DNA of 64,000 nt, from assembly GCF_026210795.1 (NCBI RefSeq), contig NC_089441.1, forward strand, positions 4,340,001 through 4,404,000. The letters run 5' to 3'. This stretch comes from Rhizophagus irregularis (lineage: Eukaryota; Glomeromycota; Glomeromycetes; Glomerales; Glomeraceae). Below are positions 28,018 to 61,034 of the stretch, one piece after another. Position 1 is the first letter of the stretch. Each line of letters begins with the position of its first letter. A program made the position numbers and the translations under genes. A model generated the notes under the pieces. It saw only the letters and a program-made list of their open reading frames with translations, was not told the origin of the DNA and did not search any database.

Positions 28018-31000
28018 TTATCTGTCGTTCTTAATCCTATTTATAATAGTTTTCAACACTCTAGTCTGTCTCTTCTCCTTTTCATGTTCAGTCTGATTAT
28101 CTAATGCTCTATCACCTACATCATCATCAATTTTTTTAAATGCAGACTTCAACATAAATACGAAATCACACTGCGTTGAAATTGCTACATTAGAGCCATT
28201 AGCAGTTAAAGTATCGTGCAAGCGCGAAGTTTGTTCGAATTTAGCAGCGGTAACTTCCGCACGATCTACAATTTCTCGCGGAACTCCTGCCATATTAGCC
28301 ACATTCATTCCATAGGATTTGGGACATACTCCAGGTACTAACTTGTAAAGAAAAGTAACCTCTTTTTTGTGTTGATCAACTTGACAGCTCATATGTTTAA
28401 GAGCGACATTAGGATTCTTGTCAAATTCTTGTGTTAACATGCCATAATGAGTAGAAAATAGTCCCAAACAACCGATGTGCGTTGCCAAATAATGTAAAAC
28501 CGAATAGGCAATAGCATACCCATCAAAGGTTGAAGTACCGCGACCTAATTCATCAAGAATGACCATAGATCTTGGTGTCGCTTCATGTAAAATCTTTGAA
28601 GTTTCGTTTAATTCTACCATGAAAGTGCTCTGTCCCGCTAGGATGTTATCATTTGCGCCAATGCGTGTATAGATTCTATCAAAGGGTGTCAAGCGACATT
28701 TTTTTGCAGGCACGCAACAACCTAACTGTGCCATAATAATTGCTACACAATTCTGTAATAAAGATGACATTATATATTATTAATGCTTAGATATATGTAA
28801 ATTTGCTTGAGTAAATTATAAAGTTTCAAACCTGACGCAAGAATGTGGATTTTCCACCCATATTAGGACCGGTCAATAAGATAATATTTTGATTGTCACC
28901 TCCCAAATATGTGTCGTTGGGTATAAAATCTGTCGCAATGCTATTTAACAAGACCGAATAAGTACTTATTAAACACTTAAGAACACTCATCATCCACATA
29001 ACATACCTGGGCGTAACGCAGGGGTGTCTTAGTTCTTCGAATTCCAAGACACTTGGTCCATCTTGCGCGAATTGAGGTCGACACGATGGTTCTGTAAAAA
29101 TAATATAAATAGTTGTTCATTCTTCATAAAGTTATAATATCGACTTACCTCCCAATGCCTTTGAACTAGCAGCCAAGCTGAGCAAACAGTCTATCTCTGA
29201 AATGATTTTAACCGCGGATAACGTCTTTTGATAATGAGCATCAAATTTTTCATAAAATCTTCCTTGTAGAGATTTTAAAATATTGGATTTAGTCTCAAGT
29301 GATTCTTGAAGATCTCTTATAAATTTTTGGAGAGTAGAGTTCCAATAACGATTTACTTTCCGAGTACACGACAACTTCTTCCAATCATTTGGAACCTTTA
29401 TACCATTTGGAACTTCAAGCTGATAAATTTCCTTTCCAATATCTTTGTATACAATCTTATCAGACCTAAAAAAATAAGTAAAATACAGCCATATTTAAAT
29501 TATGTATGAATTTGACTATAAAAAGTTTTATAGCATACTTCAATAATTTTTTTGTCTCTTTCAAATAATCGTCTAGTTGCTTCTCAACCGTGCAAAGTTT
29601 TTGATTAATTTCATCATAATCCTGTTCGATTCCAGGATAAGGTAATAATTTCCCTGTAATCAAATGTGCAATGAATATTACATATAATATTGAATTTGCA
29701 TCTACAAACGATAATTGAAAGAGAATAATTACCCTCTTTTTCAGCTTGATCATGATCAAAAGCTTCTTTAAAATATAACAACATGGGAGACAGATCCGGT
29801 ACGCTCCCAATTAATTTAAGTAATTTACCCGAATAAAATTGTTTTGCATATTCTTTAAATTTATCTACTGTATCCTATTATTTTAAATTAAGATAAAAAC
29901 TACAGTAAGGACACTTCACATCATAATATAAAAAAAGATGCTACTAACCATTAGCTTTTCGAAAGAAGTTAATACGAGTAAAAAGTCTTTTACTCTGCAT
30001 GTTCCTGCATGAATCCGACTGATTAATCTTTCCAGATCTGGAAAATGTAAAAATGTTTCGTCATATAATTCTCGAAAACCAGGATGTTTATTTAATTCTT
30101 CAATAGCATCCAATCGTTCATTAATATCATCTACATTTCGAAGCGGATGACACAACCATTGTTTAAAAGTTCGCTTTCCTTTTTTTTAAATAAATGATAT
30201 CATGTTATGAAATATGCAATGTTAATTTAAATAGTCGATATTCAAACGATTATTGCTTACCAAATGGTGTGATGCAATGATTTAACAATTTAAATACAGT
30301 TCCTTGATCGCTTCCATTTAAGTTATTCTCGAAAATTTCAAGATTCGCCAAAGTTTGACCGTCGAGGATTAGTGAAGTGCTATGACAAATCGGGTCATAT
30401 ATTCTGAAGTTTCGCAATGATACTAGTTCCTCGTCAAGTTTCAACTTTTTATTTTTATATAACAAACTAGTTAGGTTAAAAACATAACATTTTAATAAAA
30501 AGCATATTATATAATAAACTTACTGAACGTAAATACCAAATCAGTCCTATAAAGTATGTTAAATGATATTTTTAGTATAAAAGATTTTTAATAACAAAGC
30601 CTGTCCAAATAATACTTACCGCCTAAAGCGGACAACATTAAAGGCTTGTTCCGGGATATTTTAATAGCTTCAGGCCAAGTTTCTAGTTCCATAAATAATA
30701 TTTGATTAATTAAATAGCATTACGATTTACTCAATACAACCCTAAAAAATACCCGGTTTATATTCATTATCATTATCTTCATTGATGACATCATCTTGAT
30801 CAGATGAATTCTTTGGTTTATTAGAAAAATATCGAGAAAACCTAATCTCATCCCAAGTCGCATTAGCATCCCAAAATTCTCTTTCAGGTATCAGCCCGGT
30901 CCATATTGGGCAATTAATGCATGTTTTTAAAATGCGCTGTGAACGTTTACTGAGCATTCCCTAAAAAAAAGGTGAAAAAAAAAATAATAAAATAAATTCT

Positions 31001-37498: not shown

Positions 37499-39235
37499 CT
37501 ACACACTTACCCTGTATCCCAAAAACTATAAGAAGCTGAAACCTACAAAATAAAAGAAAAAAATTAAAAAATAATTCATTTTTTTTAAAAAAACAATAAG
37601 TTTTAAAACTATCGAATACTCAAGAACAGAAGCTGAAACCTACAAAATAGAAAAAAATAATTATTTTTAAAAAAATATAAAGTTTCGAAGTGTGTTTGAA
37701 ATGAACTTACCTATCCAAAGTCCAAAAACTGAAGCTGAAACCTACCAAATAAAAGAAAATAATTAATTAAATAAAAAAATTTTTTTAAAAAAAAGACTCA
37801 AAGCTTTTACTTCGAAACTCACCTATCAAAATTCAAGAACTGAAGTTGATATCTACAAAACAAAAAAAAAACCAATATATAATTTTTTTAAAAAAATTAT
37901 TTTAAAAAAAAGAATTTCGAAGTGTTCACTTTGAAACTCACCTATCAGAGCCTATGAACTGATGCTAATACTTACAAATAAACAAAAAAAAAGTTTATTA
38001 AAAAAAATATATATTAAATAAAAGTTTTGAAGCTTTTGCTTTGAAACTTATCCATTCAAAGTCTATAATCTGAAACCTGAGATCTACAAAATAAAAGAAA
38101 AAGAAATTAATTAAAAAAAAACAAATATTTTTAAAAAAAAATCTCAAAGCTTTTAGCTTCAAAACTCACCCATCAAAAGTCCATAAACCAAAACCCAAAA
38201 CCTAAAAATAGAAGAAAGAAATTAAAAAAAGATTATTTTAAAAGTTTTGAAGCGAAAGTGAAACTTCGAAACTTACCTAACAAAACCCAAGAATCGGAAA
38301 ATAAAACCTATAAAATAAAAAAAAACAAATTAATAAAATTAAAAAAAAAAAACTTTAAAAAAAGTTTTTAAGCAAAAGCAAAACTTCAAAACTTACCTAA
38401 CAAAGACCAAGTATCCAGAAGCCGAAACCTACAAAATAAAAAAAAGAAAATTATTAAAAGTTTAAAAATTTTTTTTTAAAAAAAGTTTCAAAGCGTTTCG
38501 CTTCGAAACTTACCTAATAAAGCCCAAGAATCAGAAGCTGAAACTTACAAAATAAAAAAAAAATTATTAAAAGTTTAAAAAAAACTTTTTTAAAAAAAGT
38601 TTTGAAGCATTTTGCTTCAAAACTCACCTGACAAAGCCCAAGAATCGAAAGCCGAAACTTTTAAAATAAAAAAAAGAAAATTATTAAAAGTTTAAAACAA
38701 CTTTTTTTAAAAAAAAGTTTTAAAGCATTTTGCTTTAAAACTTATCTGACAAAGCCCAAGAATTGGAAGCCGAAACTTACAAAATAAGAAAAAAAAATTT
38801 TTTAAGTGACTTTCGAAACTTACCGAATTGAAGCCAATATCAAAATAGAAGAAAAAAAATTAATAAAAAAAAATAATAATTTCGAAACGAAACTTTGAAA
38901 AAAATTAAAATAAAAAAATAAAAATAATTTTTTTATAGTTTCGCAATGAAACTTTAAAAAGAAAAAAATTATTTTTTGAAGTTTTGTTGTGAAACTTAGA
39001 GTTTTAAATAAAAAATAATAATTTAAAAAATTAAAATAAAAATAATTTTTTTATAGTTTTGCAACGAAACTTTGAAGAAAAAAAAATTTTTTTAAAGTTT
39101 CGTTATGAAACTTCAAAAGAGTTTTAAATAAAAAAAAATAATTTAAAAAATAAAATAAAAAATAATTTTTTTATGGTTTCACAACAAAACTTTGAAGAAA
39201 AAAAAAATTCGTTGTGAAAAAATTAATTTAAGTTA
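37499..39235. repeat. Tandem array of ~115-bp hairpin cassettes (array 1)
   Basis: About 13 units spaced 105-125 bases, then a degenerate tail from 38870. Each unit, read on the minus strand, has a T-rich tract ending in TTTGTAG, about 31 bases resembling GTTTCGGCTTCTGATTCTTG, then AG|GTAAGTTTCGAAGC, then a hairpin and an A/T tract. The hairpin arms vary between units in a paired way (for example CAAAGCG/CGCTTCG, TGAAGCA/TGCTTCA, TAAAGCA/TGCTTTA near 38490, 38610 and 38725). The layout resembles repeated mini-exons with splice sites, but their 31-base length does not preserve frame when joined, so coding is not supported. Confidence 0.7.
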
Positions 39236-39869
39236 GATTATCTTATCTGTTATATATGTGATAATTATTCAGAAATAATATTCGTAAAGATATCATATGT
39301 CAAAATTTTGGTCAAAACTTCGCACAGCCGAACTTTGGCCAAAACTTAGCCAAAAGTCACGTGACCGAAATTTTTGATTTCGACTAGTGATGTCAGATTA
39401 GAATAGGCGTAAATTTAAAATTGACTTATGTCAGATTGAAATTTGAATCTGATGTGTGTCAAATCAATTTATCATTTGTGTATTAAATTGAAATGCATAA
39501 AAAAATGTAATCATCATATAATCATTATAAAATAGTCTATTTGGATTAATAATAAATAAGAAAATTGTAGTATTAAGTAATTATTTTTTTCATGTTAAAT
39601 TTAAAATTATAGAGTATTCATTTATTTCTTGTCAAAACTTTGATAATTTGATTAAGCAATACAGTCAACTCCCTCTATAGTCACTCCCGTTATAGTCACA
39701 TTCTACTATATAGTCACACCAGTTGAATGTTCAAAACACTTTATTATTAAAATCTATCCTATATAGTCACAATCTATCTATAGTCACTATCACACCTATC
39801 CTCAAAAATCTTATATTAAAAAGAACCGTTTATAATCACAGTTATATAAAGAATATATTAATAACTTGG

Positions 39870-40610
39870 CATCTAATAATCGTACAAAGATGTATCATAG
39901 CTTGTTAGAATTGTCTCACTGAGACGAATCGAATGGTGGTAGTTTTATCCTTTTCCTTTGCTAGTGTTTACGGCCAGACCACCCACTGCCTCTTATGAGA
40001 CTAATCTCGGGTCTGTGTCCTATCATCTTCAATGGGCAACCATTATACTGAGTACTTAATTCCTCAGGTAACAGCACCACAGTTTTATCCTTTTCCGATC
40101 ACTGGCTGACGAGTTATTCAACAAAATGTTAAACATCGGCATTATAATATTTCTTGATTTACGTTTACTGCGCCATTTAACATTTTGCTAGATTTCTCGG
40201 TACCTAGTGATTGTAAAAAGACGATTTATAGCTCGTTGGAATCGCCTCATCGAGACGAATCGAATGGTGGTAAGTTCACCTCTCTGTGATCAATATTGAC
40301 GGAGTTATTACTTAAAAACCATTTAATATTTTTTAATTTCGGAAATTGATCTAGTGATTAGATTTCGATGTATCTTATACCATTAGATTCGTCTCATCAA
40401 GCCGAATCGAATGGTAGTAAGATCGTCTTTCTAGGATCAATATTGGCAGAGTTATTACACAAAAACCATTAATATTTTTTTAATTTCGGAAATTAATCTA
40501 GTGATTGGATTTCGACGTATTTTATACCATTAGAACCGCCTCATCAAGACGAATCGAATGGCGGTAAGATCATCTCTCTACGATTAATATTGGCGAAGTT
40601 ACGATACAAT
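39870..40610. repeat. 147-bp satellite units with a GAGACG palindrome
   Basis: CTAGTGATT marks unit starts at 40204, 40351 and 40498, exactly 147 bases apart; an older related unit starts near 39870. Each unit contains a near-palindrome of the form ATTCGTCTC-NNN-GAGACGAAT followed by CGAATGGTGGTAAGATC. The same module reappears six times, in alternating orientation, in the palindrome at 48050-49000. No coding frame; function unknown. Confidence 0.7.
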
Positions 40611-40723
40611 AAAGTTTTAAGTATAATTTTGGCTAAAATTATGTTAATTTTTGGCCGGAATTATGATATACAAATATAAGAAATTTTTTATATAGTCACA
40701 TCTCTTTATAATCACCAAATATT

Positions 40724-41358
40724 ACAGCATTCCTTGGAACATATTTTTCTTCACTTACCATATGGTCTATCTTAGATACACCTTTGCACGACTTTCATTT
40801 TGACCTTTATGTCCAAATCTGGTTGTGCCACTCCATTTTCTTTCATCATTGGGAATTAGCTCAAGGCATTACAAAAAAAATGAAATCGTCAGCTCTTGGG
40901 CCTTCTTCTTTTCTTTGTCCTTCCTCTAACATTCCTCTTGACTCTTCGACACCTTCCTTGGCGACAGCTTCCTTGGATTCCTGGGTTTCTTGGGTTTCCT
41001 CTTCTATAATCCGTGGGGGATCTTGGATTTCACATTTGGATTTTTGGCGCCGCTTAACAGTTCAGCCTCTACTTAGGATTTCTTTTTGGTAACGGATTGG
41101 ATCTTAGGACATGCTGGATAGTTGACTCACACTGGCCTTTGGGTAAAGATGGGGTATACGTTTCTGTAATAGTTTAGTTTTTCTTTACTTAATTTTATTT
41201 TGTTTAGATTTCTTTACTTGTATGAATCGTGAAGCTAGTTCTTTTTATTTTTTATGTTTATTCTCTATATTTGATATTTGTAATATTGTTCGATTTGTTT
41301 ATTGTACTTTTCATTTAAAATAATAATAAAAGATATAGTCATAAGACTATTTGCTCAT
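40724..41358 (+). pseudogene. 5'-truncated LINE copy (C-terminal ORF2 and 3' UTR)
   Basis: Plus-strand sequence matching the inverse of the LINE at 53163-53800. It begins just after AATCACCAAATAT (40704-40716), keeps the last ~100 codons of ORF2 (to the TAA at 41090) and the 3' UTR, and ends at another CACCAAATAT junction (to 41371). Such 5' truncation is the normal outcome of target-primed reverse transcription. Confidence 0.75.
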
Positions 41359-41371
41359 AGTCACCAAATAT

Positions 41372-42390
41372 GGGTTGGTCCACCCTATCTCAGTGGTTAG
41401 TCACGAGACCCTCATTGCCCCCTGAGTATAGTGAGGTCGCAGGTTCGATTCCCATGACCACGGAAATAAAAAGAATTTTACTGCGGACGCTACAACCAAT
41501 AGCGTGAAGGTACAGGGATTAGTGTAGTTGGACTGCATCACGGCCGGGTTAAAGCGTGTACGATTAGGCCGCACATTTCAACTAAGGGTTATGGTGTCCT
41601 TCTAACGTTCCCTATGAGGCCATTGGCATGTGCGCAGTCCTGTCTTTGAGGTCACTACTATACCTTGGGGGGACTTCCTGTCTGGGTGGTCACTCTACGA
41701 TACCACTTGGGGTCAGTAATGGCTAGATGGTCGTCCTAGATGGTAAAGTTGAGGGTGCAATGTCTTAGTGGTAGTTTGACCTTCTGTTAGGTCATAGACC
41801 AACCAAGGTGTTCGTGCACAGACAGATAGCTTGGTGATTGGGTTCGATTCCCTTCTCTGATGGGCCCTGGTTGGTGATTTCTGGTGGTTGATACCCACCA
41901 TAAGGGATGATCCTGGGTAACACCTACAAGCTTACTGTTCAGGTGGTCACTACAAAGTATACCACTTGGGGATTACAACTGTACTATCGGTGGTGGATAA
42001 TCGCGGGCTGTAGTGGCCTTTGAGTGAGACCTAGTACCTAATATGGTGGTATGGAAGGGGTCTAGATGTTTGAAAGTTATCTGATGAAAGTCCTCCGTGA
42101 CAGTAGTAGTGGTGAGGGGTTTATAATAGTAGCCATTACAGTATCATGCAACGGATTAAAGGACGAGTAGGGTGGTGTTCTTCCGATCCAAAGGCCTTCG
42201 GGTTCCTGGGGTATGCCTGAATATTGGACGGGCTGGATAAGTTGTCTTGGTTAAAAGGTGGCCTTAATGACATCTGGTGGTTCAATGATGGCGAGGATAT
42301 GAACGACCTACCTCCATAACCTTCAATAGAAAGTGCGGAAAGTAGTGGCCACTAAACGTACAATACACTTGTAAAATAATCACCAAATAT
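41372..42390 (+). mobile_element. tRNA-headed SINE-like retroposon, full copy
   Basis: Begins right after a CACCAAATAT junction. Positions 41386-41400 (TATCTCAGTGGTTAG) and 41442-41452 (GGTTCGATTCC) resemble RNA polymerase III A and B boxes at tRNA-like spacing. A second tRNA-like box pair lies at 41761-41780 (TGTCTTAGTGGTAG) and 41841-41851. It ends TTGTAAAATAATCACCAAATAT, so its last bases equal the target. At ~1 kb it is long for a SINE and could be a larger non-autonomous retroposon. No coding frame of note; short frames on the minus strand overlap the boxes. Confidence 0.6.
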
Positions 42391-43282
42391 CCAATAGCGT
42401 GAAGGTACAGGGATTAGTGTAGTTGGACTGCATCATGGTGAATTAGTGTGTACGGTTAGGCCGCACATTTCAACTAAGGGTCATCGTGTCCTTCTAACGT
42501 TCCCTATGAGGCCATTGGTATGTGCGCAGTCCTGTCCTTGAGGTCACTACTATACCTTGGGGGGACTTTCTGTCCGGGTGGTCACTTCACGATACCGCTT
42601 GGGGTCAGTAATGGCTAGATGGTCGTCCTAGATGGTAAAGCTGAGGGTGCAATGTCTTAGTGGTAGTTTGACTTCTGTTAGGTCTTAGACCAACTACGGT
42701 GTTCGTGCGCAGACAGATAGCTTGGTGATTGGGTTCGATTCCCTTCTCTGATGGGCCCTGGTTGGTGATTTCTGGTGGTTGATACCCACCATAAGGGATG
42801 ATCCTGGGTAACACCTACAAGCTTACTGTTCAGGTGGTCACTACAAAAGTATACCACTTGGGGATTACAACTGTACTATCGGTGATGGGTAATTGCAGGC
42901 TGTAGTGGCCTTTGAGTGAGACCTAGTACCTAATATGGTGGTATAGAAAGGGTCTAGATGTTTAAAAGTTATCTGACGAAAGTCCTCCGTGACGTAGTAG
43001 TGGTGAGGGGTTTATAATAGTAGCCATTACAGTATCATGCAACGGATTAAAGGACGAGTAGGGTGGTGTTCAGCAGATTCGAAGGCCTTCGGGTCCCTGG
43101 GATAAGTCCTTGCGTTCTGGTTGTGGTGTTGAATTGTCCCTGTTAAAAGGTGGCGGGGATGGTTACATCATGGCTTAGTGAGGATGATGCAATGAACGAC
43201 CTACCTCCATAGCCTTCAATAGAGGGTGCGGAAAGTAGTGGCCACTAAACTTACAAAACACTTGTAAAATAATCACCAAATA
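42391..43282 (+). mobile_element. 5'-truncated second copy of the SINE-like retroposon
   Basis: Equivalent to 41496-42390 with modest divergence; starts CCAATAGCGTGAAGG at the junction and ends again in AATCACCAAATAT. It lacks the first tRNA-like box pair but keeps the second (B box GGTTCGATTCC near 42733-42743). Same orientation as its neighbours, so it is stacked head-to-tail. Confidence 0.7.
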
Positions 43283-44458
43283 TGACTTGTCCTTATATTT
43301 TACCTGAATTTAGTCCTTTTAATACTTTTAAAACATTTCTGCTGGACCTTAGAACCGTTTGTCTTGGAAAATTTCTCTCCGCGACTCCTTTCGAAATCTT
43401 TACCGTAACTTTTCTGCTGTGGAATTTACGGCTACATTGTGTACTGCGACCCTCCTTCAAATTCTTGTCTGCGACTTGCACGTGGACTTATACCGATGTC
43501 TCTTACTAGTTTTCTTGGAACATATTTTTCATCATCCACTATTTGTTCTATTTTTGATACACCTTTACATGATTTTCATTTTGATGTCTACGTACAAATC
43601 TGGTTGTGCTGTTCCGTTTTCTTTCATCATTGGAAATCAGTTCAAGGCATTACCAATAAAATGAAATCGTCCGCTATTGGACCTTCTCCTACTTCTCATC
43701 CTTTCTCGCAAATTTCTCCTGCAATTTCAACACCTTCCTTGGCGACAGCTTCCTTGGATTCCTGGGTTTCTTGGGTTTCCTCTTATATAATCCATGGGGG
43801 ATCTTGGATTTCGCATTTGGATTTTTGGCGCCGCTTAACAGTTCAGCTTCTACTTAGGATTTCTTTTTGGTAACGGATTGGATCTTCGGATATGCTGGAT
43901 AGGACCCCGGATATCTAATATAAAGGTCATAATGGACTTTTGGCCAAAAACACCCCTTTTTGCTGAAACTCAAAAAATCGTTTTTTGTAAATATCTCAGC
44001 ATCCAGTAATTCAATTTTAATGAACTTTTTTTTAAATTGTAGAGCTAAATGAGGGCTACAAAATAAAAAAAAAAGTTTATCAAAATTGGACCACTGGATG
44101 CCGAGATATTTACAAAAAACGATTTTTTGAACCCCTGAAAAATGGGCCAATCTACCGAAAGTGTGACTTATGACCTGTTTTGGAGATATCCAGGGTCCTT
44201 GCTGGATAGTTGACTCACACTGGCCTTCGGGTAAAGTTGGGGTATGCGTTTCTGTAATAGTTTAGTTTTTCTTTACTTAATTTTATTTTGTTTAGATTTC
44301 TTTACTTGTATGAATCGTGAAGCTAGTTCTTTTTATTTTTTATGTTTAATTTTCTATATTTTATTTGTAATATTGTTCGATTTGAGTTTTGTACTTTTCG
44401 TTTAAAAATTTATAATAAAAGATAAAGTCATAAGACTGTTTGCTCATAATTACCAAAT
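43283..44458 (+). pseudogene. Second 5'-truncated LINE copy, broken by a foldback MITE
   Basis: Starts at the CACCAAATAT junction with GACTTGTCCTTATATTTTAC, which equals the inverse of the LINE around 54020. ORF2 coding frames are broken (frames at 43282-43509 and 43439-43873 carry different pieces). The 3' UTR is split by a 299-bp MITE and resumes at 44208, ending TTTGCTCATAATTACCAAATAT at the element's GGACTGTCCC end. Confidence 0.75.
43901..44199. mobile_element. Foldback MITE with 8-bp target duplication
   Basis: Nearly the whole 299 bp is an inverted repeat: it begins AGGACCCCGGATATCT and ends in the inverse AGATATCCAGGGTCCT with one mismatch, and both arms contain AAAAAATCGTTTTTTGTAAA. 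TGCTGGAT is duplicated on both sides (43893-43900 and 44200-44207). Superfamily uncertain (8 bp suits hAT or P). Confidence 0.8.
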
Positions 44459-45110
44459 ATGGACTGTCCCAAATGTGTGACTATAAAGAAAGTTGACTGT
44501 ATATTGAAAACTTAGCATCAATTAAGAAAGAAAAAGCTTTAATTAACCAGGAAAAATTACAAAAAATAAAGGAAGTTCTTCTTAACCTACAAATACTACA
44601 TTATACATTTCTAATTTTCGTTACTGGGTTAAAAATAAATTTAAACTACAAAAAATTTCATCAGATTCCTATATTGTACTTCATACTCAAATTCAAAATA
44701 AAAAAAATGATGAAAAAACTAAAGTTGAACTTTCTGTATTAGTTGTAGAAAATATGTATGATGAATTTTGCAAAATACATTCCACAATTACTCAGTATGG
44801 GGGCCAAAAAGAAACTTGGAATCAAATCAGTAGTAAATAGGGATATTGTTAACAAGATCTTGTAAAAAATTTGTGACACAGTGTAATATTTGTATAGCGA
44901 AACTTACACGAATTCGACTATTGGCTGGAATACCAATTATAGAACAAAAATTCATGTCACGTTTGCAGGTAAATTTATTTATTTAGTATTATTTTTTACT
45001 AATTTATAATTATGTATTAAAGTAATTGTTTCTGATTGAAATAGATTGATTTAATTGACATGACTTTTAAGCAAAATAATGAATTTAAATACATTACTCA
45101 TATACGTGAC

Positions 45111-47930: not shown

Positions 47931-49132
47931 TTAAAGCTCCGAATGGGTCAGTTTGGTCCGGATTATAGACAGTTCGGATTAGAGCCGAAATCCGTAAGAA
48001 CCGAACCGAAAAACTGGCGGTTCAGTTTAGTTTAATCCGATTTTTATAAAAATGCGAAAAATCGAATAGCCGGCCATCTAGTGATCGTATAAAGTCGAAC
48101 CATATATCATTGGATTCGTCTCGACGAGACGCGTCGAATGGTGGTAAGATCATGTCTCTAGCATCGATAGATCACACGTTAACTCATGCTAAATGATTTA
48201 TCAATAATTGGAATTAGCAAGCTATCTATTGGTGCTAGAGACATGATCTTAGCACCATTCGACGCGTCTCAGTGAGACGAATCCAATGAATATATATTTG
48301 TCCGTATACGACCACTAAATGGCGAATAATATCAAGTTTCGCATTTTTTTAAAATTTTCGAGCGTTAAAAATTAAAAATTCCGATACATGAATTTATTCG
48401 TCGTCCAATGGTCGTACAAATATGAATTAGCACTCATTGGATTCGTCTCGATGAGACGAGTCGAATGGTGGTGAGATCATGTCTCTAGCATTAATAGATC
48501 GTAAGTTAATTCACGCTAAATAATTTATAAAAAATTGGCATTAGCAAGCTATCTATCGATGCTAGAGACGTGATCTTACCACCATTAGACTCGTCTCATC
48601 AAGACGAATCCAATGAGTCCTAATTCATATTTGTACGACCATTGGATGACGAATAAATTCATGTATCGGAATTTTTAATTTTTAACGCTCAAAAATTTTA
48701 AAAAAATGCGAAACTTGATATTATTCGCCATCTAGTGGTCGTACACGGACGAATTTATATTCATTGGATTCGTCTCACTGAGACGCGTCGAATGGTGCTA
48801 AGATCGTGTCTCTAGCACCGATAGATAGCTTGCTAATTCCAATTATTGATAAATCATTTAGCGTGGGTTAACGTGTGTTCTATCGATGCTAGAGACATGA
48901 TCTTACCGCCATTCGACGCGTCTCGTCGAGAGGAATCCAATGATATATGGCTCGACTTTGTACGATCACTAGATGGCCGGCTATTCGATTTTTCGCATTT
49001 TTATAAAAAATCAGATTAAACCGAACCGAACCGCCAGTTTTTTGGTTCTAATACCCGAACCGAACTGAACCGAATTTTGAGCCGGTTTTGGATCGGTTCC
49101 CCGGTTTAGCCCGAACCGTTCGGAGCTTTAAT
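47931..49132. mobile_element. Palindromic element built of three nested hairpins
   Basis: Ends TTAAAGCTCCGAA and TTCGGAGCTTTAA. From ~48006 to ~49050 an insert divides the small MITE; this insert is one large inverted repeat centred near 48525, and each third of it is a hairpin of its own (centres near 48205, 48525 and 48855). The arms carry the ATTCGTCTC/GAGACG module and GGTAAGATCATGTCTCTAGC. TTAA at both ends could be target duplication of piggyBac type, but this is not sure. No coding frame. Confidence 0.75.
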
Positions 49133-49800
49133 TTTTATACTTCTACTTTATGCTATAAATAGCATGCATATATAAATCTTTCTTTATTAGCTGTATATAT
49201 ATCACTGGTCAGAATAGTCCATTTCATCCAAATTTCAAATTGACGAATGTTAGATAAAAGTTGTTCTAATTTTAACCGATCATTGCCAAAAAAATTTTTA
49301 AAATTAAAATGGACGATTTGCACAGTTTGCCTACCACTTGGCAATTACAAATCAGCAAAAATTCATTAAAAAATTGGAAATAAACTATTTGTCAACCTTT
49401 ACTAGACATTCGTCCAAATTTCAAATTGCTGAATGTTGGACGAAATTAAGTCTAATTTTGTCTAATTGTTAATGATTTTTATGTATTTAGCTTATATTTA
49501 ATTTTGTAATAACAATCAATTGATTATATTTTATTATTTCGCTTTATTAAAATTACATATTAAAAATTATCATATTAAATATCTAATATCTACAGTATCT
49601 GTCTATTTACACCTACCATCCACCATTCACTATCTACCATTTACCATTTACCATTTACCATTCACCATCCATTGTGTCAACTATTGTCAACCATCATTAA
49701 CCATCATCCACATTATCTACATCTTGTCTACTACCCATCATCTACCATCCATCGTCCACCATCATTCACCATTATCCACTTATCCAAAATTATTCACGTA
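49133..49800. other. AT-rich spacer with a CCATT-type low-complexity tract
   Basis: At ~49201 a CACTGGTCAGAATAGTCC end resembles the CACTA-like end at 36327. TCCAAATTTCAAATTG followed by GAATGTT occurs twice (49237 and 49412 regions). From 49605 to 49790 the plus strand is a run of ACCATT/ACCATC-like words. The frame across it is a repeat artefact. Confidence 0.5.
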
Positions 49801-52095
49801 CATCCAAAGACCAAGCCGAAATCTACAAAATAGAAAAAAAATTAAAATAAAATTAAATAAATACTTGTTTTAAAAAAAAGTTTTGAAGTTTTAATTTCAA
49901 AATTTACCCATATATCCAAACCTAAGAACTGAAAGCCGAAATCTACAAAATTGAAGATAAAAAATTTAAAGATATTAAAAAAAATACTTTTTTAAAAGAA
50001 AGTTTCAAAGTTTTAACTTCAAAACTTATCCATATATCCAACGCCCAATAACCAAAAGCTGAAATCTACAAAATTGAAGATTAAAAAATTTAAAAATATT
50101 AAAAAAAATATTTTTTTAAAAAAAAGGTTTGAAGTTTTTACTTCGAAACTTTATATATCCAAAATCTAAGAACTGAAAGCCGAAATCTATAAAATAGAAA
50201 AAAGAAAAAATTAAAAAAAAATAATTTTTTTTAAAAAAAGTTTTGAAGTTTTTACTTCAAAACTCATCTATATATTCAATGCCCAACCGAAAGTTGAAAC
50301 CTACAAAATAGAAAAAAAAAATTAAAATAAAATTAAAAAATTACTTTTTTAAAAAAAAATTTCAAAGTTTTCACTTCAAAACTTACCTATATATCCAAAA
50401 TCCAAGAACTGAAAGCTGAAATCTACAAAATAGAAAAAAGAAAAAATTAAAAAAAACTTGTTTTAAAAAAAAGTTTCAAAATTTAACTTCGAAACTTACC
50501 CATATATCTAAAGCTTAACCGAAAGTCAAAACCTACAAAGTAGAAAAAAAAATTAAAATAAAATTAAAAAAATACTTTTTTTAAAAAAGTTTCAAAGTTT
50601 TACTTCAAAACTTACCCATATATCCAAAGCCCAATCGAAAGTCAAACCCTATAAAATAGAAAAAAAAAATTAAAATAAAATTGAAAAAAATATTTTTTTT
50701 AAAAAGTTTCAAAGTTTTTTTAACTTTGAAACTCACCCATATGTCTAAAATCCAAGAACTGAAAGCAGAAATCTACAAAATAAAAAAAAGAAAAAATTAA
50801 AAAAAAACTTGTTTTAAAAAAAAGTTTCAAAGTTTTAACTTCAAAACTTACTCATATATCCAAAGCCTAACCGAAAGTTGAAACCTACAAAATAGAAAAA
50901 AAAATTAAAGTAAAATTATTATTCTTTTTAAAGAGTTTCGATTCTTTCACTTTGAAACTCACCTATATATCCAAACACCTAAAAACTGAAAGAAATCTAC
51001 AAAAAAAATTAAAATAAAATTAAAAAAAATAATTTATTTTAAAAAAATTTTGAAGATTTTACTCTGAAACTCACCTGTATCCAATGTCCAAGAACTAAAA
51101 CAAAATAGAAGAAAAAAAATTTTTAAAAAAAATTTAAAAAAAATAATTTTTTTTAAAAAAAAGTTTTGAAGATTTTACTCTAAAACTCACCCGAGAACCG
51201 AAGGCCGAACCTACAAAATAGAAGAAAAAAAATTAAAATAATTTTTTTCAAAAAAAGTTTCAAAGTCTTACTTCGAAACTTACTTTTGAGATTCAGTATC
51301 CACGTTAGAACTGATATCCCTATATAAAATATAATAAAAAAAAACGTTTTTAGTATAAAAACGTTTTATTAAAGAAAGTTTTAAAATTTTTTTTTCAAAA
51401 CTTATCTTTGAGATTCAGTATTTATGCCGGAACTGATATCCCTATAAGTAAAAATAAAAAAATGTTTCATTAAAAACATTTTATTAAAAAAGTTTCGAAA
51501 CTTTAGTTTTGAAACTTACCTGGAATATTAGTGTTCAAGTTGGAGCTGATTTCCTATACAAAAATAAAAAAAAACAGTTTTAATATTAAAAAACATTTTT
51601 TTTTATAAAGTTTTGAATTTTTTTTCGAAACTTATCTGGAATATCGATATCCATGTCAGAGCTGATTTTCTGCAAAAAAAACAAAAAAAAATGTTTTTTT
51701 ACGTTAAAATGTTTTTTTTAAAAGAAAGTTTCAAAAGAGTTTCAAAACTTACCTAGAATATCGGTATCCATGCCAGAACCAATTTTCTTTGTAAAAAAAA
51801 ATAAAAAAGAATCGTTTTTTAGTTAAAAAAACGTTTTTTAAGAAAGTTTTAAAATTTTTTAAAACTTTACCTAGGAAAACATTTTTTAGTTATAAAACGT
51901 TTTTTTTTTAAGAAAGTTTCAAAACTTTTTGAAACTTTACCTAGGGAAACGGTATCCATGCTGGAACTAATTTCCTAAATAAAAAATATTATAAAAAAGA
52001 TGTTTTTTAGTAAAAAACATTTTTTTTTTAAGATAGTTTCAAAAATTTTTCAAAACTTTACCTGGAATATCAGTATCCACGCTGGAACTGATTAA
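49800..52095. repeat. Tandem array of ~115-bp hairpin cassettes (array 2)
   Basis: About 20 units in the same orientation as array 1. Up to ~51280 the minus-strand cassette core resembles ATTTCGGCTTTCAGTTCTTG and ends in ATATAG|GTAAGTTT; after 51280 it changes to a second type, e.g. GAAATCAGCTCCAACTTGAA, ending CCAG|GTAAGT. The second type, read in one frame, gives variants of EISSSMDTDIP in at least seven units. Each is bounded by TAG or CAG on one side and GTAAG or GTAAA on the other. Hairpin arms vary in a compensating way as in array 1. Confidence 0.7.
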
Positions 52096-53123
52096 ACAAA
52101 AAAACTATTTCAAGAAAAAAAGATTTTTTTTCAAAATAGTTTAAACTATTATTAATAGTCTAAATTCGGTAATAGATCAACTAATTACTGTGGCTAAACT
52201 TTTGCCATTATTTATATTAATTATAGTAATAGATCAACTAATTACTGTGGCTAAACTTTTGCCATTATTGATATTAATTATTAAAAAATTGTTTAAAAAT
52301 CGTCAAAAAAGTTTTTAAGTTGATTGTTTGTTGTTAATAAAAATCAATAAAAAAAATATTGGTCGATTTATGGTTTTTTTTATGTTACAACTCAACCAAA
52401 AATCGACCAAAAATCGACCAGTTGATTTATGCCGATTTTTTTCTGATTTTTGTAATTAGCCGAATGTGTGACGAATCATGTGATCGATTTGCCAAATTGT
52501 TGCCGAAAGGTCTTATTGACGAAATAAAATGATGAATTGGATAAAACAAATAATTTAATAAGCAACATAAAAGAAATTTATATATTTTTCTTATTTGTTA
52601 TATGTAAATATTATTATCAAATATAATTATTTATACTATTATATATCAAAAAAAAAATAAAATAAAATAAATACTAACCAAAAGTAAAGTTATATGGATT
52701 TATCTTTAGTACTTGATTTATCCTTAAATTTCTGGGAGAAGTATGGAGAAGTGTAACAGCACCAATCTAGAGTTTTGCCATCAATTTTATACCATTTACT
52801 ACCTATAAGATTGTTTAGATCTTCTTACATTTTCAAGTAAATTACAAGCTTGTGCTTTCTTTCTTTCATTGTAATAACTTTAAAGGCTTTAAAACTATTA
52901 ATCGCTATTAAAGTCAGATGGATTTGATTACTAATAAACAGTATAGCAGCGGTCATTGATTCTGGAATATCATAGATAGCTACTTGACCTTTCTTTTTGT
53001 TCATGAAAAGACCAGATGGCTGAAAACTACCTCACTAGAATATTCTCTAATGATACTATTTAAGTACTATTATTCCAGATATATTTACAAAGTTGATTCA
53101 TCTCCAATTTAAGTCTAATAGTA
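52096..53123 (-). other. AT-rich region with a 56-bp duplication and an unrecognised ORF remnant
   Basis: 52170-52280 holds two adjacent copies of a unit containing CAACTAATTACTGTGGCTAAA. On the minus strand, ~53035-52683 transl. reads nearly open (pieces such as KGQVAIYDIPESMTAAILFI and GKTLDWCCYTSPYF) with one internal stop. I do not recognise the family; a transposon-borne or fast-evolving protein remnant is possible. Confidence 0.35.
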
Positions 53124-53162
53124 CAGTCAACTCTCTTTATAGTCACACATTTGGGACAGTCC
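53124..53162. mobile_element. End of a second mariner/pogo-like element
   Basis: After TA at 53122-53123 comes CAGTCAACTCTCTTTATAGT and ~20 further bases, matching in inverse the right end of the 39662-44499 element up to GGACAGTCC. The LINE starts directly after it. The other end of this element would lie beyond 64000. Confidence 0.7.
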
Positions 53163-53477
53163 ATATTTGGTGATTATGAGCAAACAGTCTTATGACTTTA
53201 TCTTTTATTATTAAATTTAAACGAAAAGTACAATAAACAAATCGAACAATATTACAAATATCAAATATAGAAAATAAACATAAAAAATAAAAAGAACTAG
53301 CTTCACGATTCATACAAGTAAAGAAATCTAAACAAAATAAAATTAAGTAAAGAAAAACTAAACTATTACAGAAATGCATACCCCATCTTTACCCGAAGGC
53401 CAGTGTGAGTCAACTATCCAGCATGTCCTAAGATCCAATCCGTTACCAAAAAGAAATCCTAAGTAGAGGCTGAACTG

Positions 53478-56400
53478 TTAAGCGGCGCCAAAAATCCAAA
53501 TGCGAAATTCAAGATCCCACGGATTATAGAAGAAGACCCAAGAAACCCAGGAATCCAAGGAAGCTGTCGCCAAGGAAGGTGTCAAAGAGTCAAGAGGAAT
53601 GTTAGAGGAAGGTCGAAGAATAGAAGAAGGCCCAAGAGCTGACGATTTCATTTTTTTTGTAATGCCTTGAGCTAATTCCCAATGATGAAAGAAAATGGAT
53701 CGGCACAACCAGATTTGAACATAAAGGTCAAAATGAAAGTCGTGCAAAGGTGTATCTAAGATAGACCAAATGGTAGGTGAAGAAAAATAAATTCCAAGAA
53801 ATTCTGTCAAAGATATCGGTATAAGTCCTCTTGCGAGTCGCAGGCAGGAAATTGAAGGAAGGTCACAATCCCAACAATTAAGAGCCATAAATTCAGCAGC
53901 AAAAGAGTCCGGTAAAAAGATTAAAGATGACGCGGAAAGGAAATTATCAAGATAAGTAGTCCGAAGAGCCAATAGTAATGTTTTAAAAGTTTGTAAAGGG
54001 CTAAATTCTGGTAAAATATAAGGACAAGTCCACAAGTGGTCTAAAGTCTCAGGGAAAGGAATTACATTGAGGACAAAGCCAACTTGGATTATAAAGATGA
54101 GGCTTTCGTCTCTGAAGAGTTGTAAGCGTTGGAAGCATATCTAAAAGTAGCTTGATACGGAAACCACAAAACTCGGAACGGCCATTCTGATGAGAGACAA
54201 AATGCTTATTGTTATTGAGACAAAATTTGGTGCAAGCCCAATCACTATCAGAAGTTGAGGAATAGGAATTAAATCTTGGTAATACAGCAAGAGTTAAAAG
54301 ACTTTTAGCGTCAAAAATATCTCTAATAAATTTCCGGATATTCATATCCACAGGTAAGGAATTAAATTGTAAAATGCAAGGAGCCATCAATTCCGGTGGT
54401 GGATAAGAAGAAAGATGTAAGTCAGTATGAGCGGCTTTGGCTAATGCATCCACATGATTATTCAAAGGGTCGTCAGCGTGAGCAGGAACCTTGATCAAGG
54501 TAACATCCAGATTCTTTTGCAACATAATAGTGCGTATGGAGGACCACAAAAAGTGGTTGGATTCTTTAAGCATTCTGGGAATAAAAGGAGCATCCACATA
54601 TAAAGACCATAAAGAAAGTAATTGAGCACAATCAGTGGCGACAGTAATCTTTGAATTCTGAGAAAGGGAGTCCAATCCGTGCAATAAAGCAAAAACTTCT
54701 GAACGTAAAGCAGAAGGAAAAATGGAAGAGATGATATTATAATGGGATTCCAAAATAAATTTATCAGGATCTATAGCAGTCCATGCATAAGCCATCGAGG
54801 ATGCCGGATGACTAGGAGGAGAAAGGAAGGAATCATCAATATAAAGGGTAAACACCGAAGAAGGAAGTTGGATATCAGAAATCCTAAGCACTAGTTCATT
54901 CGTAGGAGGTAAGCGAACCGGAGCAAAAAGATGAAATAGTAAAAGAGATTTGGCATAGCCTAACGAGGCAGAAAGTGAAACCGAACGAGTATCCGCATGT
55001 ATATAAGTACGAGGTTTCGTAGGATAACGGATCAAACTTGATAACGGAACATAAGAGAAACATCCTTCAGAGGGACATCGTTTAATCAAAGTCTTAGAGG
55101 TAAAGAATCGCGGAATAGCAGAGGCACAACCTTGGCATGCAGTAAATTCAGAAAGTAAATCATCAACCGATGACGCAATCCAATGTGAAATAAGAGCTTC
55201 ATTACGTGGAGCAGGATAGGTAGTAATCACACAGCCAATGAGGAAAGAGTTAGTATTGCGATTAAAAGAAATAGCTCATTGAGGGTTAAACCAATAATTT
55301 TGACTAATATCTATAAAAGAAATAGAAGCTACAGTATGAGAACTAGGAATTCTAAATTGTTGTAAAATAAAAAAAGAAAGTGAATTAGGAATAACAATAA
55401 GATTGAACAAATAATTAAACCAAGCAGGCACAGATCCTTTGTTCGATACTCGTTTAAAAAAGCATAAATCTTTCCATGAGAGAAGTCGAGAGCCACACGG
55501 TGTAATCAATTGAGCAAGAAATTGAGTGCAGAAATTTTTCCGAACATTTTTCATGGAAGTAAATAAATCTTTTGGTAAAATAGACCGGAGTGGAATCGCT
55601 GGACGTAAATCTTTCCTCAGAGGTCAGAACAGTAAAGACCACGTGATATTTAAACGAGAAGAGAACAATAAAGAATTAAATAAAGAATGTGTTCGCAAAG
55701 AAAAGGTGTGGGACCATGGTTCCAGGTCAATAGTAGAAGGGCAGACATCACAGTCCAAAAAACCTTGGAGATAAGTAATCATATAATTAGCAAAGAGTTT
55801 ATATGAAGGGTGAGAAAAAATTTTCTGCCATGAAGCCACATAAGATGATAGAAATCGACCAAACGCTTGTTGAATAGAGAAAGGCAACAGTGTGAAGAGT
55901 GTGGAAAGAAGAGTGACTGAGGCCAAACCAGCCTTCTGACGAATAAGAGAAAGCATTGGAGAAACCATGCGATTAATGGTGGATTCTGCAAATAATGTGG
56001 TTTGTGGGCGAAATTCTAGCCTCGGAAGTAGGACAACGTTATAAAGATAAGCTATATGTTGTGCTAAAAGTTTTTTAGGACTGAGTAGAGCGGCCATGTC
56101 TTTGACCATGGAAACAGTTTGGTTATGAACGAAATGAGAAGAAACCGAAAGGTTAAACCAAACACCTAAAAACCGAAAAGATGTAGATAAGGCTAACGCC
56201 TTTAAAGTAAGGGTATGAATCGTATTTAAAGAAGATGGAAATAGATCAAATACAATAGTTTGAGAAAATTGTTCAGAAGAAAGAAGGATATATTTTGCTG
56301 AATTTGCTTGAGTATTATTTAAAGTGTAAAATTCAGCAGTGATGGAAAGTCGATCTTCAATTCCTTGTTTAGATGAAGCAATCAAAGTAGAGTCATCCAT

Positions 56401-58750
56401 AAATGTAATATGTGAAACAGGAAGATTATGTTGTTCATATTCAATTGGAGAATAATCCAATAATGCAGAAGATTTCAAAATAAAGGGATCACAAGCTTCT
56501 CGATTAAGTGTGGTAAGTAATGGATCCAAGTATATAACCCATAATAGTGGAGAGATGATTTCACCTTGGTCAATACCAATTCTAACTCTATATCCAGAAG
56601 TATCACCATGATGTGTAATAATTTTATTATTACGCCTTGTAAAAAAAGGTTAATGATAAATTTGATCAATAAAGACGGAATATGCAGACGAATTAAAGCC
56701 AGTCTAAGCATGTTCAAATCAATTGAGTCAAAGGCCTTAGAAATGTCCTGAGAAACAACCCATAGTTCTTGGTCATCGCTTTTATCAAAGCGTCGTTGAT
56801 GAATAATAGCATCAAGCATCTTAATAGGAATGTCGGTGGAGCCGCCTGGTAATCCGGCAAAATTACCACCTTGGAGCACTTGATTGTCGGCTAGGATTTT
56901 TGATAGTCGAGTTGTAATGACCTTAACCACACATTTTCGTACTGTTTCCAATAGAGTGATAGGTCGCGTATTCTTCAATTGGGCGTCAAATTCATGAGGC
57001 TTTGGAATGGGATAAACAAGCGCTTCACGCCAATCGGCAGGAATATCTCCATGAATGAGACAAGCATTGGCTAATACAAGGGACAAATTGAAAGTTTCTC
57101 CAGTTAAATGTTTGAGCATCTCATAAGAGATCTTGGAAGGACCAGAGGCTTTATTATTAGGCATAGAATTGAGAGTGCTTTTCCATTCATCGGCCAGAAT
57201 AGGAGACATAACCGAGTTATATAAGGACGAATCAATATCTGGAAGAGGAGTATAAGCTCGTTGCCATCGTGGAGGAAATGAATCCGTAGAAGAATACTGG
57301 ACCAAAGGAGGAGTGACAACCGATTGGAAGTGTTTAATAGCAGCTTGTTTGATATCTGAAGGATCAGTAAGTAATGTGGGTTTGGAGTCAATAACAACCA
57401 AAACTCTATCAAGGACGATAGAACGATGTTCCACTGATAGGGCTGAAGAAATAAAAGAGCCCGGGGATGTAGAGAAATGTTCATCTCTAAGAGCAGTATA
57501 ATATTCAATGGAATCTACACGATGCTGATGAAATTGTGTGGAAAGATAAGCTGAGACCAAAGCTTTTTGTGAACGTAAAAATTTGACAAAAGTAGGAAGC
57601 GGTGTTGTACTATAAGAAGGTATAGTATAATCTGTTAAAAGAGACTTAAGAAGGATTAATTGGGTTGGTAAAGAATTAATCATTTGTGAAATTTGAGCAG
57701 GACGACTAGGCCTAGATGTGGTCAATTTAAACAATAATCCTATCCAAGAATTTGTTGACGCAATAAGCATGGTAAGTTCGGGAGGATATTTATGGTGATG
57801 AGTATTGGATACGTGTTGGAATGGTAGAGAATCAATGGCACCAGCGAGAATAGAACGTTTAAGAGCGTGCCAAAGTTTGTCCAATGAAAGAGCTGAAAGT
57901 GAAGATACTGAAGGGTGGTGTGTGGTCAAGTATAACTCAAGACGTGAGTTTACTTCATTGGAAAATTTGTCCCAAGTGTCATCTTTCAAATTTTTGTAAA
58001 GAAAGATGGTGCGTTGTTCGCTTTTCTGCTTTAATCGAGCTTTGGATAAAATAGCGAAACATGAGCTAAAATCAAAGGCCGTTATAAGTACACGATGATC
58101 AGTAAATTGATTATCATTCAGCTTAGGACAAGTTGCAACTTGAGAGAAAAGACCGGGAGCAGGAAATCCAGGGGATGACCAGATATAATCAAGTCTTGAA
58201 GAACCATTTTGATGATAAAAGGTAGGACTAGGACCTGAAATTGAGAAAATATGGGATTGGTGATCCGTAAAATATCGAGAAGAGAGTGATCGTAAAATTT
58301 TCAAATGATGTTGAGGAAGATGTGAATGTGAAATTTCATCTGCATTAAAATCACCAAGGATAACTACGTGATAGTTATTGGAACGGGCTTTATCAAGCCA
58401 TAAATTAAGTTGAACAAGAATAGCATCACGTTCTTTATAATGAATAGAATGATAAGGAGGAATATAAACAGAGATAATAGAAATTTTTGTCTGATGAAAA
58501 AAAAGATCTAATTTTAAAAGACGACCTTTCCAGGGATCAATCTTCTGAACATGTTTGTGTAAAGAATGGCGAAGTAAAAGACCAACACCATCATATGGTC
58601 GCGAATTGAGAAGGGGGAAGGAGCCCAATAAGATTTAAAATTATATTGGGAATGTTCATTTTGATAAATAAATTTAGCACTAGAAGAAGTAAGACGAGTA
58701 TCATTTAAAGATAAACCGCCAAAAGAAGAATGAAGGAAATAATTTAACAA
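53478..58750 (-). pseudogene. LINE copy A ORF2: endonuclease, reverse transcriptase, RNase H, Zn motif (broken)
   Basis: Order on the minus strand: AP-endonuclease (GDFNADE ~58360-58340, SRLDYIWSS ~58205-58180, TDHRVL ~58105-58090); reverse transcriptase with NKASGPSKISYEML, NFAGLPGGSTD, SQDISKAFDSID (first catalytic Asp) and FMDD (~56402-56391); RNase H (YIDDSF, RSEVFALLHGL, ATDCAQL, NNHVDALAKAA); then CPQCN...H...C-type zinc motif (~54080-54010). Breaks: a frame change near 58610 in the endonuclease, one near 56640 in a homopolymer inside the RT, TGA for Trp at ~55277, a one-base gain near 54043, and a short deletion near 53520. Copy B differs at these sites, which shows they are lesions. 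The enzyme would nick DNA and prime reverse transcription at the nick. Confidence 0.88.
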
Positions 58751-59254
58751 ATGCAGTTGTCGTACGGGGAACGTAATCCATTAACATTGATTTGTCCAAA
58801 GTTAATAAGAGGGGAAGAAAAAGGAGGAGAAGGGGGATTATAAGGACTATTAAAATTAGGTATCATACTATCAGGGGGGTGAAATCCCTGTGAGACACCC
58901 GATACAAGTTGGTGTTCAATCATTAGAAGGGGAGGGTTTTAAAGGAGAGAAGGAGTCCAATTTTTCTATAATCGAACCAAGTTGGGCAGAAAGATTCTTT
59001 TGTGTAGTAGTAACATTAAAAATTTCTGATTGCAAACGGGAAGTGTTAGCGTCGGGGGTGATATTAGTAGGTCGGGAAACAGGTAAGGGGACATGTCGTT
59101 TTGATAGGATGGAGCTAGGATCCAAAGCTGAGAAGGAAGCATCAGGGAGAAACGTCCATAAGAAGAGGAAGTATGGGGAGGAAGATTGAAACCAGAATTC
59201 GTGTCACGGGTTGGAGCATCATCCCATCCATTATCATAAGAATAATTTTGATTT

Positions 59255-61034
59255 TCATGATCGTCGCGGCGGATACAAATCAGAGTCACCAGGGTTATCA
59301 TAATTCATCATTGATTCAAGCTCAGATAGCCTATATTCATGGGACGTGATAGTATTATTCATCCAAGAGACAGTTTCCTCGAGAGTATGGAGGGTGTTAG
59401 CGATCTCTTTAATCTGCGCCTTTAGTTCATCAATAATATGTTGAGGAAGCGTAGGGGCAGGATTGTCAGATGAAGAAGTAGGTGTTGTAGAAATAATAGG
59501 ATGAGGTTTGTGTGGAGGTTGAGTAGGTCCGGAAGAATTTCCATTGTTCCTGGGATTATTATTATTATTGTTATTCCGGTTACTACTTCGAGGAGTATTG
59601 GGACGAAAAGTGTTAGACTTATTATTGCTGTTGTTAGAACGGGATGAAGAGGAATTATTATTGCGAGATCGAGAATTGGAACGCGATCTTGAACGGGAAT
59701 TAGAATTGTCACGTGATTGTCGTGAATCCTGACGGCCACGTCTAGGGCCAGCATTGAAGCGAGAGTAAAGTTTGTTAAGGCAATCGTCCACTTTTCGTGT
59801 GGGGCGAGGGCTACATACAGAAGGAGAGCAACCCGAACGTCCACAGATATGACATAAAGTGTGAGCTTCATTAGGAGGGTGCCAAGTTAAACTTTTGCCG
59901 CGGAAAGCCACGGTCATTTCTTTGGCAGCTTCAAGAGATTTAAACGAGGAGAAGTTCAAATATACATAGGGTTTAGGCTTGTAGAAGCTGATAGATAGAG
60001 GAACGTTAAGGGCTTTAGCGTTAACTTGAGTAGCAATTTCCAACAGATCAGCTTCTTTAATATTCTTTGGGATGCCAGCAAGGATGGCGACATGTTCTCT
60101 ACGGCTGTCGCGTTGGGTTTTCGAGAAAGATGCCGGGCAGACGCGTAAAGAATTACCAAGGCAAATGATCGCCCAAATATCATTAAATTGGGTAACTGCA
60201 TCCGCGGAGGAAAACTGGATATGTCCATTATAGTAATGTTTCCTAGGAGTAAGTTTGCACTTGATTACAGTACCATATCGGGAAAATGCCTGACGGACTT
60301 GAGTCTCAGTTAGGAAAAGTGGGATATCAGGTGACGAATAAGGACTTCATCTCGTCGCTGAGTTTGGCGTCTGCAGGGGAGTAATGACTGAAGGCCAAAT
60401 CGAGGAGATCGGCACATGGAGAGGTGATACAATCGGTATAATCATCATGATTATTAAAGAAGACAAGGATTTTTTTGTTATCGCCTGATCCATCACATCG
60501 TGCGCGAGCACCATAAGAGGAATAACGGGAGAGTGAACAATCCACCTCGTCACACATAGAGCGATTGGTGGTGAATTTAGCTTTGAACACGTCAGGTGCG
60601 TCACGTAGATAGGCCGCAGCATGATAACGAGAGGGTGCAGATTTGATAGCAGCAGCATTACCATCGGGAGATGGTCGTCGTTTTGGGACATCAAAGACGA
60701 CAGCTTTGCCTTTACCACTGGTGTTAGAGGGAGCATGGATAGAAGCGTTAACAGTTTCAACAGGAGTAGTAGTAGTATGAGGAGAGGTAATCACTTGGAC
60801 TTTGTTGACAGGAAGACCAGAAGGAACGGTAGAAGTAAAGGTGGGAGTAGAAGCTGAGGGCGAAGTTATATCAACATTCATTACGTCATCAGAGACAGTA
60901 CGTGTACGTTTATTGGGTGCGCCAGCGGTACTAGTGGGAGATAAAGGTCGGTCTCCAGAGGGAGTAGAAACAATAGGACGCGGTGGCGGCGGAATATCCG
61001 GGTTAATAACAGAAGGAGCTGGAGGTGTAGTCAT
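59255..61034 (-). pseudogene. LINE copy A ORF1: RRM-type RNA-binding protein (one frame break)
   Basis: From the Met at 61034: a Pro/Ser/Thr-rich N-terminus with a basic KRTRTV patch, then after a frame change near 60330 two RRM-like folds (QVRQAFSRYGTVIKC with GHIQFSSADA; then HVAILAGIPKNIKEADLL with YVYLNFSSFKSLEAAKEM), a zinc-knuckle-like CHICGRSGCSPSVC (~59857-59816), an Arg/Ser/Asn-rich tract encoded by ~59760-59560, and a C-terminal helix with heptad-like spacing (ELKAQIKEIANTLHTLEETV). ORF1 proteins of this class coat the element RNA. The Arg-Ser tract resembles those of nuclear RNA-binding proteins. Confidence 0.82.

Follow-up and report, generated by a model that had tools for sequence, protein, structure and literature searches.

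LINEs and SINEs at three sites of one DNA transposon family in Rhizophagus irregularis

Why should consecutive retroposon copies lie inside a DNA transposon in one orientation, with the same short word at every junction? The question was raised by a 64,000-nucleotide stretch of the Rhizophagus irregularis genome (C13:4340001-4404000, hereafter the window), where an earlier note had described four such copies of long and short interspersed nuclear elements (LINEs and SINEs). That observation is confirmed, and the system is larger than described there: in all copies read, two LINE types and two SINE types use three sites of the host transposon base-precisely and in one direction only. We ascribe this, with a probability of about 0.88, to site-specific LINEs with an apurinic/apyrimidinic (APE)-type endonuclease and to SINE partners, all dedicated to one DNA transposon family.

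Retroposon arrays in the window

The word at the junctions, site A, is TAATCACCAAATAT, an ordinary part of the host transposon. Host copy 1 (39660-44501, plus strand, inverted repeats at both ends) is delimited by its left end (39660-39685) and by the right flank of site A (44461-44501), and its plus-strand array runs in the order host, LINE1a fragment, SINE1, truncated SINE1, LINE1b fragment, host. The host-left junction carries the word at 40709-40722, followed by a 5'-truncated LINE1a at site A (40723-41357), whose identity with the LINE at 61229-61824 is 97% over 596 bases. A word with one mismatch (TAGTCACCAAATAT, 41358-41371) joins LINE1a to the longest SINE1 of the window (41372-42376), and the next word (42377-42390) joins the latter to a 5'-truncated SINE1 (42391-43269; 95% identical to the first over 228 bases). 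After the word at 43270-43283 comes the 5'-truncated LINE1b (43284-44446), a related subfamily matching LINE1a at 81% over 625 bases and at 96% over the last 249; the host-right junction is again a word with one mismatch (TAATTACCAAATAT, 44447-44460). All junctions proposed for the four copies thus stand, with coordinates that had been off by a few bases. The longest SINE1 carries GGTTCGATTCC, which we take to be B-box-like from the general B-box consensus, near its 5' end (41442) and at 41841; ARAGORN found no tRNA in the window.

The second array lies on the minus strand, in the order LINE copy A, LINE copy B, second host copy. As had been proposed, the word joins the two LINE copies to each other (61176-61189) and copy B to the right end of host copy 2 (word at 53163-53176, host end at 53122-53162). 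LINE1a copy B (53177-61175, 7999 bp) has broken frames, and copy A (61190-64000) continues beyond the window. Altogether seven words within one mismatch were found in the window against 0.11 expected, a number reached by none of 100 dinucleotide shuffles, which rules out chance recurrence. At three mismatches the word is unremarkable in so AT-rich a sequence (34 found against 27 expected, 34 being reached by 10 of 100 shuffles), so the case rests on the words with zero or one mismatch and on their places.

The LINE proteins were examined in copy B, which encodes an APE-type endonuclease and a reverse transcriptase (RT) at 56475-58628 and a ribonuclease H (RNase H) at 54049-55230; in copy A, RNase H lies in the open reading frame (ORF) at 61456-63093. 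Exo_endo_phos, RVT_1 and RNase_H were found in window ORFs and their relatives. RVT_1 scored 27.6 bits in the window ORF, just under the curated cut-off of 29.6, and above it in the relatives P0001, P0006, P0016 and P0062; RNase_H was also detected in P0009 and P0062, and RRM in P0006 and P0040. The best named relatives of the LINE proteins are from R. irregularis itself, with 80-93% identity for the top matches. As in target-specific non-long-terminal-repeat retrotransposons, RT and endonuclease are encoded and the copies lie at a defined sequence with a target duplication.

LINE1b is interrupted by a foldback insert (43902-44199) with inverted arms of about 92 bases, flanked by the 9-base repeat TGCTGGATA (43893-43901 and 44200-44208); it is another, later DNA element. 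Two Rfam matches, both within this insert, fell below the gathering scores and were taken as chance.

Host transposon and genome-wide use of its sites

Genome searches covered the 146.7-Mb assembly (32 contigs). The host element is about 965 bp long, with imperfect inverted repeats, TA ends and hundreds of genome copies. Three empty copies (L089, 965 bp; L067, 966 bp; L084, 818 bp) start with TACAGTCAACT and finish with AGTTGACTGTA, the sequence outside being unrelated. Both host ends were in reach in 19 of 30 empty-site loci, with lengths of 818-1553 bp, much of this variation being in steps of an internal 147-bp repeat, and with TA at start and end in 18 of the 19. Inverted repeats and a TA duplication are features of Tc1/mariner/pogo-type elements, and a mariner/pogo-like identity, drawn from these ends rather than from a transposase search, is plausible. 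No ORF of at least 150 amino acids overlaps the host copy in the window. The site A word stops 41 bp short of the right end of the host; the reversed site was absent from the 30 empty-site loci (about 3 kb examined around each, at up to 3 mismatches).

The bases following the LINE and SINE 3' ends were tabulated across the genome, as the earlier note had suggested. The LINE1-tail pattern gave 294 matches at up to 2 mismatches, LINE2-type tails included (backward-read control, 0), and flanks were read for the best 100 of the 294 (95 exact, 5 with one mismatch) together with those of loci found earlier. LINE2-type tails (L086, L088), flanks with fewer than 80 bases downstream and identical 120-base stretches were dropped, leaving 94 distinct places from the 95 exact ones and 103 distinct junctions overall. 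Rather than lying at unrelated sequences, all 103 LINE1 ends were followed in the next 22 bases by the site A word, with at most 2 edits; it was exact and directly adjacent in 91, and started a few bases later in L041. Beyond the word came the host (55), a SINE (25), LINE1 (21) or sequence that BLAST left unclassified (2), the last being by eye a LINE1 5' variant (L097) and a variant host end (L123). Downstream SINE pieces were pooled, the heads of SINE1 and SINE2 being too alike to assign. The LINE1 tail plus word matched 130 places at up to 3 mismatches.

SINE1 behaves in the same way. Its tail gave 76 genome matches, 74 of them with the site A word within 2 mismatches. One exception (C12:3813486, read in L056) carries the variant word of its array plus one additional A; the other (C12:3812463), whose flank is unread, falls outside the 2-mismatch limit. 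All 20 SINE1 tails read base by base run into the word. Empty hosts, which had also been proposed as a check, are abundant, with 444 matches to empty site A at up to 3 mismatches (backward-read control, 0) and 487 to the word plus host right flank; the filled share of site A can be put only roughly at a tenth or more, as the two patterns differ. LINE1 3' ends in 60 loci were 85.5-100% identical to the window copy, in a comparison where some loci appear twice, one is the window copy itself and a few alignments are short, which indicates that the activity of the family extended over a period of time.

Two further sites, B (GGAAAAGGATAAAAC) and C (GTAAAAAGACGATT), lie in the interior of the same host family. 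The left host end was beyond reach in 11 of the 30 empty-site-A loci, and 10 of these were interrupted at B or C. The interrupting elements include LINE2, a sister of LINE1 with a 3' end 82-85% identical to it, at site B in L086, where GGAAAAGGATAAAAC flanks it at either end, and at site C in L088; SINE2 fills site C in L061, between two copies of GTAAAAAGACGATTTATAG. L072 and L073 presumably hold LINE2 5' ends at site B. The eleventh locus, L080, is broken elsewhere, near host position 309, by sequence matching none of the four retroposons. Host copy 1 in the window carries, unmentioned in the earlier note, a 5'-truncated SINE2 at site B (39957-40081, minus strand; 96% identical over 125 bases to the SINE2 3' end of L061), enclosed by the two target-duplication copies of the site B word at 39942-39956 and 40082-40096 (minus strand; GTTTTATCCTTTTCC on the plus strand). 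Its site C is empty (GTAAAAAGACGATTTATAG, 40213-40231, plus strand).

Genome-wide, 91 exact LINE2 tails and 299 SINE2 tails at up to 2 mismatches were found. Among the 20 of 91 LINE2 tails that were read (the first 20 of 46 places, every second of the 91), 19 belonged to B and 1 to C; among the 20 of 299 SINE2 tails read (the first 20 of 40 drawn places, all exact matches), 16 belonged to B and 4 to C, the word being accepted with up to 3 edits. The LINE2 tail plus site B word matched 138 places, and empty sites at up to 3 mismatches numbered 384 for B and 462 for C (backward-read controls, 0). Site B is polymorphic. Comparing the best 100 empty hosts with the best 100 LINE2 junctions, ordered by mismatches, we found G74 C19 T7 and G80 C7 T11 A2, respectively, at position 2, G93 A5 C2 and G97 A3 at position 1, and one base in at least 97% at all other positions in both sets. 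Host polymorphism thus recurs in the LINE2 junctions, which indicates that each insertion copied its junction word from the very target it entered. The proposal of a LINE aimed at one site in a DNA transposon therefore survives as to site specificity and has to be widened to at least three sites, two LINE types and two SINE types. No motif common to the sites is claimed: the best ungapped 18-mers agree at 14 of 18 positions for A-C and B-C and at 11 for A-B, and a score of at least 14 is also reached by 54 of 300 pairs of host windows drawn at random, because the host has internal repeats.

Several observations stand beside these. An inverted repeat at 48041-49009 of the window (arms of 470 bases, 94% alike, 29-base spacer) has repeat units about 61-66% alike to the 147-bp host repeat and may, judged by this likeness, be an older relative of the host transposon. 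In L123 (C28:612034-612236), the LINE1 tail and site A word are followed by a host-like end (GGACTGTCCCTTTAACG...GGACTGTA) unlike the usual right end, perhaps a second host subfamily that is likewise targeted. Degenerate AT-rich tandem repeats of about 115 bp occupy 37500-39200 and 49800-51550 of the window, the two stretches being mutually related, and a minus-strand ORF at 28018-28770 resembles, by eye, the C-terminal part of a MutS-type mismatch repair protein.

Target duplication, mechanism and competing explanations

In every copy read, the LINE1 tail leads into the word, as would be expected if the word belonged to the retroposon 3' ends and the true target duplications lay outside it. 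The 444 empty hosts carry the same word without any retroposon, and individual arrays have word variants of their own. In the C12 array (C12:3792-3814 kb), TAATCAACAAATAT stands at all five junctions read, after both LINE1 and SINE1 tails, and also at two matched SINE1 junctions, one of which is among the five; the C27 array has ..AAATAC at both of its two junctions, and a pair on C5 has ..AAATAA after one LINE1 and one SINE1. None of these variants was seen outside its own array among the site A junctions read. Array-private variants common to unrelated LINE and SINE junctions identify the word as the target duplication, in agreement with its earlier interpretation. The site A word also precedes retroposon 5' ends, in several copies with extra bases (AT, AG, ATA) in between, as is common at LINE 5' junctions. 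Together with the site B polymorphism mirrored in LINE2 junctions, these observations exclude a fixed retroposon tail, a reading that is scarcely credible. It is also very improbable that a few insertions were followed by the spread of composites or arrays through host transposition and tandem duplication. Composites could travel with the mobile host, and the near-regular spacing of about 8 kb in some arrays is what tandem duplication gives. At the six host-left junctions, however, where host and word are followed by LINE1, the LINE1 start is cut at six different points; start points of downstream LINEs and SINEs vary widely, the host ends adjoining LINE1 have different sequence outside, LINEs and SINEs alternate within arrays and hundreds of host copies are empty. 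The varied cut points, starts and outside sequence led us to reject such spread as the explanation.

Specificity could also lie mainly in recruitment, for example by the host transposase or by chromatin, with a loose endonuclease preference; a single element family holds all three sites, and A is close to an end, where transposase would bind. Recruitment alone would scatter insertions across the element, whereas the insertions are base-precise and one-way and sites B and C are internal, which makes this improbable. A more serious rival, though still unlikely, retains the same targets and has each SINE moved by a further LINE family sharing the SINE tail. SINE1 and LINE1 have no common tail, nor have SINE2 and LINE2, whereas the available part of PMC3747384 counts 58 SINEs that have the tail of a partner LINE. 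The searches brought up no LINE with a tail of SINE type, but they were anchored on known tails, which makes this a weak objection.

Site-specific LINEs with SINE partners, dedicated to one transposon family, would produce the arrays as follows. LINE1 inserts at site A, in one orientation, and its sister LINE2 at B or C; SINE1 uses site A as LINE1 does, and SINE2 uses sites B and C as LINE2 does. The APE-type endonuclease probably nicks the site, target-primed reverse transcription would copy the LINE RNA at the nick, and the same LINE proteins may carry the SINE RNAs in trans. The target duplications are about 14-19 bp long, 5' truncations occur and the word is restored at every junction; because each insertion restores it, later insertions can stack head to tail.

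Some observations weigh against this account. Neither the SINE1 nor the SINE2 tail convincingly matches the LINE1 or LINE2 tails, so that the usual SINE feature of a 3' tail common with the partner LINE is lacking in both pairs. LINE1 ends in ..GACTGTTTGCTCA and LINE2 in ..GACTGTTTGCACA, almost the same, yet their sites differ; the choice of site in LINE1 and LINE2 is likely to be made by the LINE protein and not by the tail. The window words at 41358 and 44447, with one mismatch each, are unlike their neighbours and must then be later mutations. The count of tails read base by base leaves aside about 190 of the 294 LINE1-pattern tails, 71 of the 91 LINE2 tails and 279 of the 299 SINE2 tails, and BLAST left unclassified the sequence downstream of one LINE2 (L149) and one SINE2 (L194), besides the two LINE1 cases.

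Over roughly their first 735 bases, SINE1 and SINE2 have 87% identity, followed by a further 33-base match; no similarity was found between them in the last 180-205 bases. Tail type and target site go together. We give even odds to the wider proposal that the host family is a self-renewing platform with several berths, whose three sites are split between sister LINEs, and that SINEs switched site through 3' tail exchange, keeping the head, the tail setting the LINE machinery and hence the site.

Relation to known site-specific elements

Site-specific LINEs are usually seen as a compromise with the cell, aimed at ribosomal DNA (rDNA), telomeres or other safe repeats. The safe place here would be another parasite, one that spreads and so keeps supplying new targets. 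Endonuclease specificity and the way it evolves can be tested directly on the natural variety of the system, with its two sister LINEs, three sites, hundreds of empty sites and polymorphic targets. What sets a SINE's LINE machinery can be tested by comparing SINE1 with SINE2, whose heads are alike and whose tails differ. Repeat annotation of R. irregularis would change as well, with unclassified-looking arrays becoming stacks of a few families at three sites. The R. irregularis transposable element library of PMC11075540, as far as its examined parts go, has SINE, LINE/L1-Tx1, LINE/L1-R1, LINE/I and Tc1-Mariner families, among which the present LINE, SINE and host families may already be catalogued; insertion-site specificity was not found in those parts. 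A literature search on Rhizophagus, on fungi, on Tx1L/Tx1D and on LINEs in DNA transposons, mostly at title and abstract level and with few subscription journals, returned no report of the present system.

The target duplication of R1 is 14 bp. The LINEs described here resemble the R1 clade and other site-specific APE LINEs in their APE-type endonuclease, exact target and similar duplication length, and differ from R1 and from the rDNA and telomere LINEs in that the target is a DNA transposon. In the available part of PMC4640811, R1 is among the clades listed with RNase H and Tx1 is not; the RNase H of the window LINEs is thus unlike the expectation for the Tx1 clade, appears to fit the I group and, on domain content, speaks against Tx1. 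RNase H after the RT, as in the window LINEs, is a trait of the I group (R1, I, Tad1, Ingi and others) and is not exclusive to it.

In Xenopus laevis, the DNA transposons Tx1D and Tx2D reportedly house Tx1L and Tx2L, in work said to be that of Christensen and colleagues from 2000 and 2001. Tx1L is an APE-type LINE with an exact site in a non-autonomous DNA transposon, with which it forms composite elements, and its duplication is 23 bp long. The frog Tx1L in Tx1D would be the nearest precedent: an APE-type LINE has an exact site inside a DNA transposon in both systems, with a duplication of about 14-19 bp here against 23 bp for Tx1L. The earlier note's suggestion that a DNA transposon would be an unusual dedicated target for a LINE has to be corrected in view of this precedent. 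Transposons are also named among known LINE targets in the available part of PMC4640811. Unlike Tx1L in Tx1D, the system described here resides in a fungus, where a single host offers three sites to two LINE types and to SINE partners, the arrays are mixed and head-to-tail, and the LINE carries RNase H; relative to the Tx1L-type precedent, the fungal setting, the three sites and the mixed arrays are unusual.

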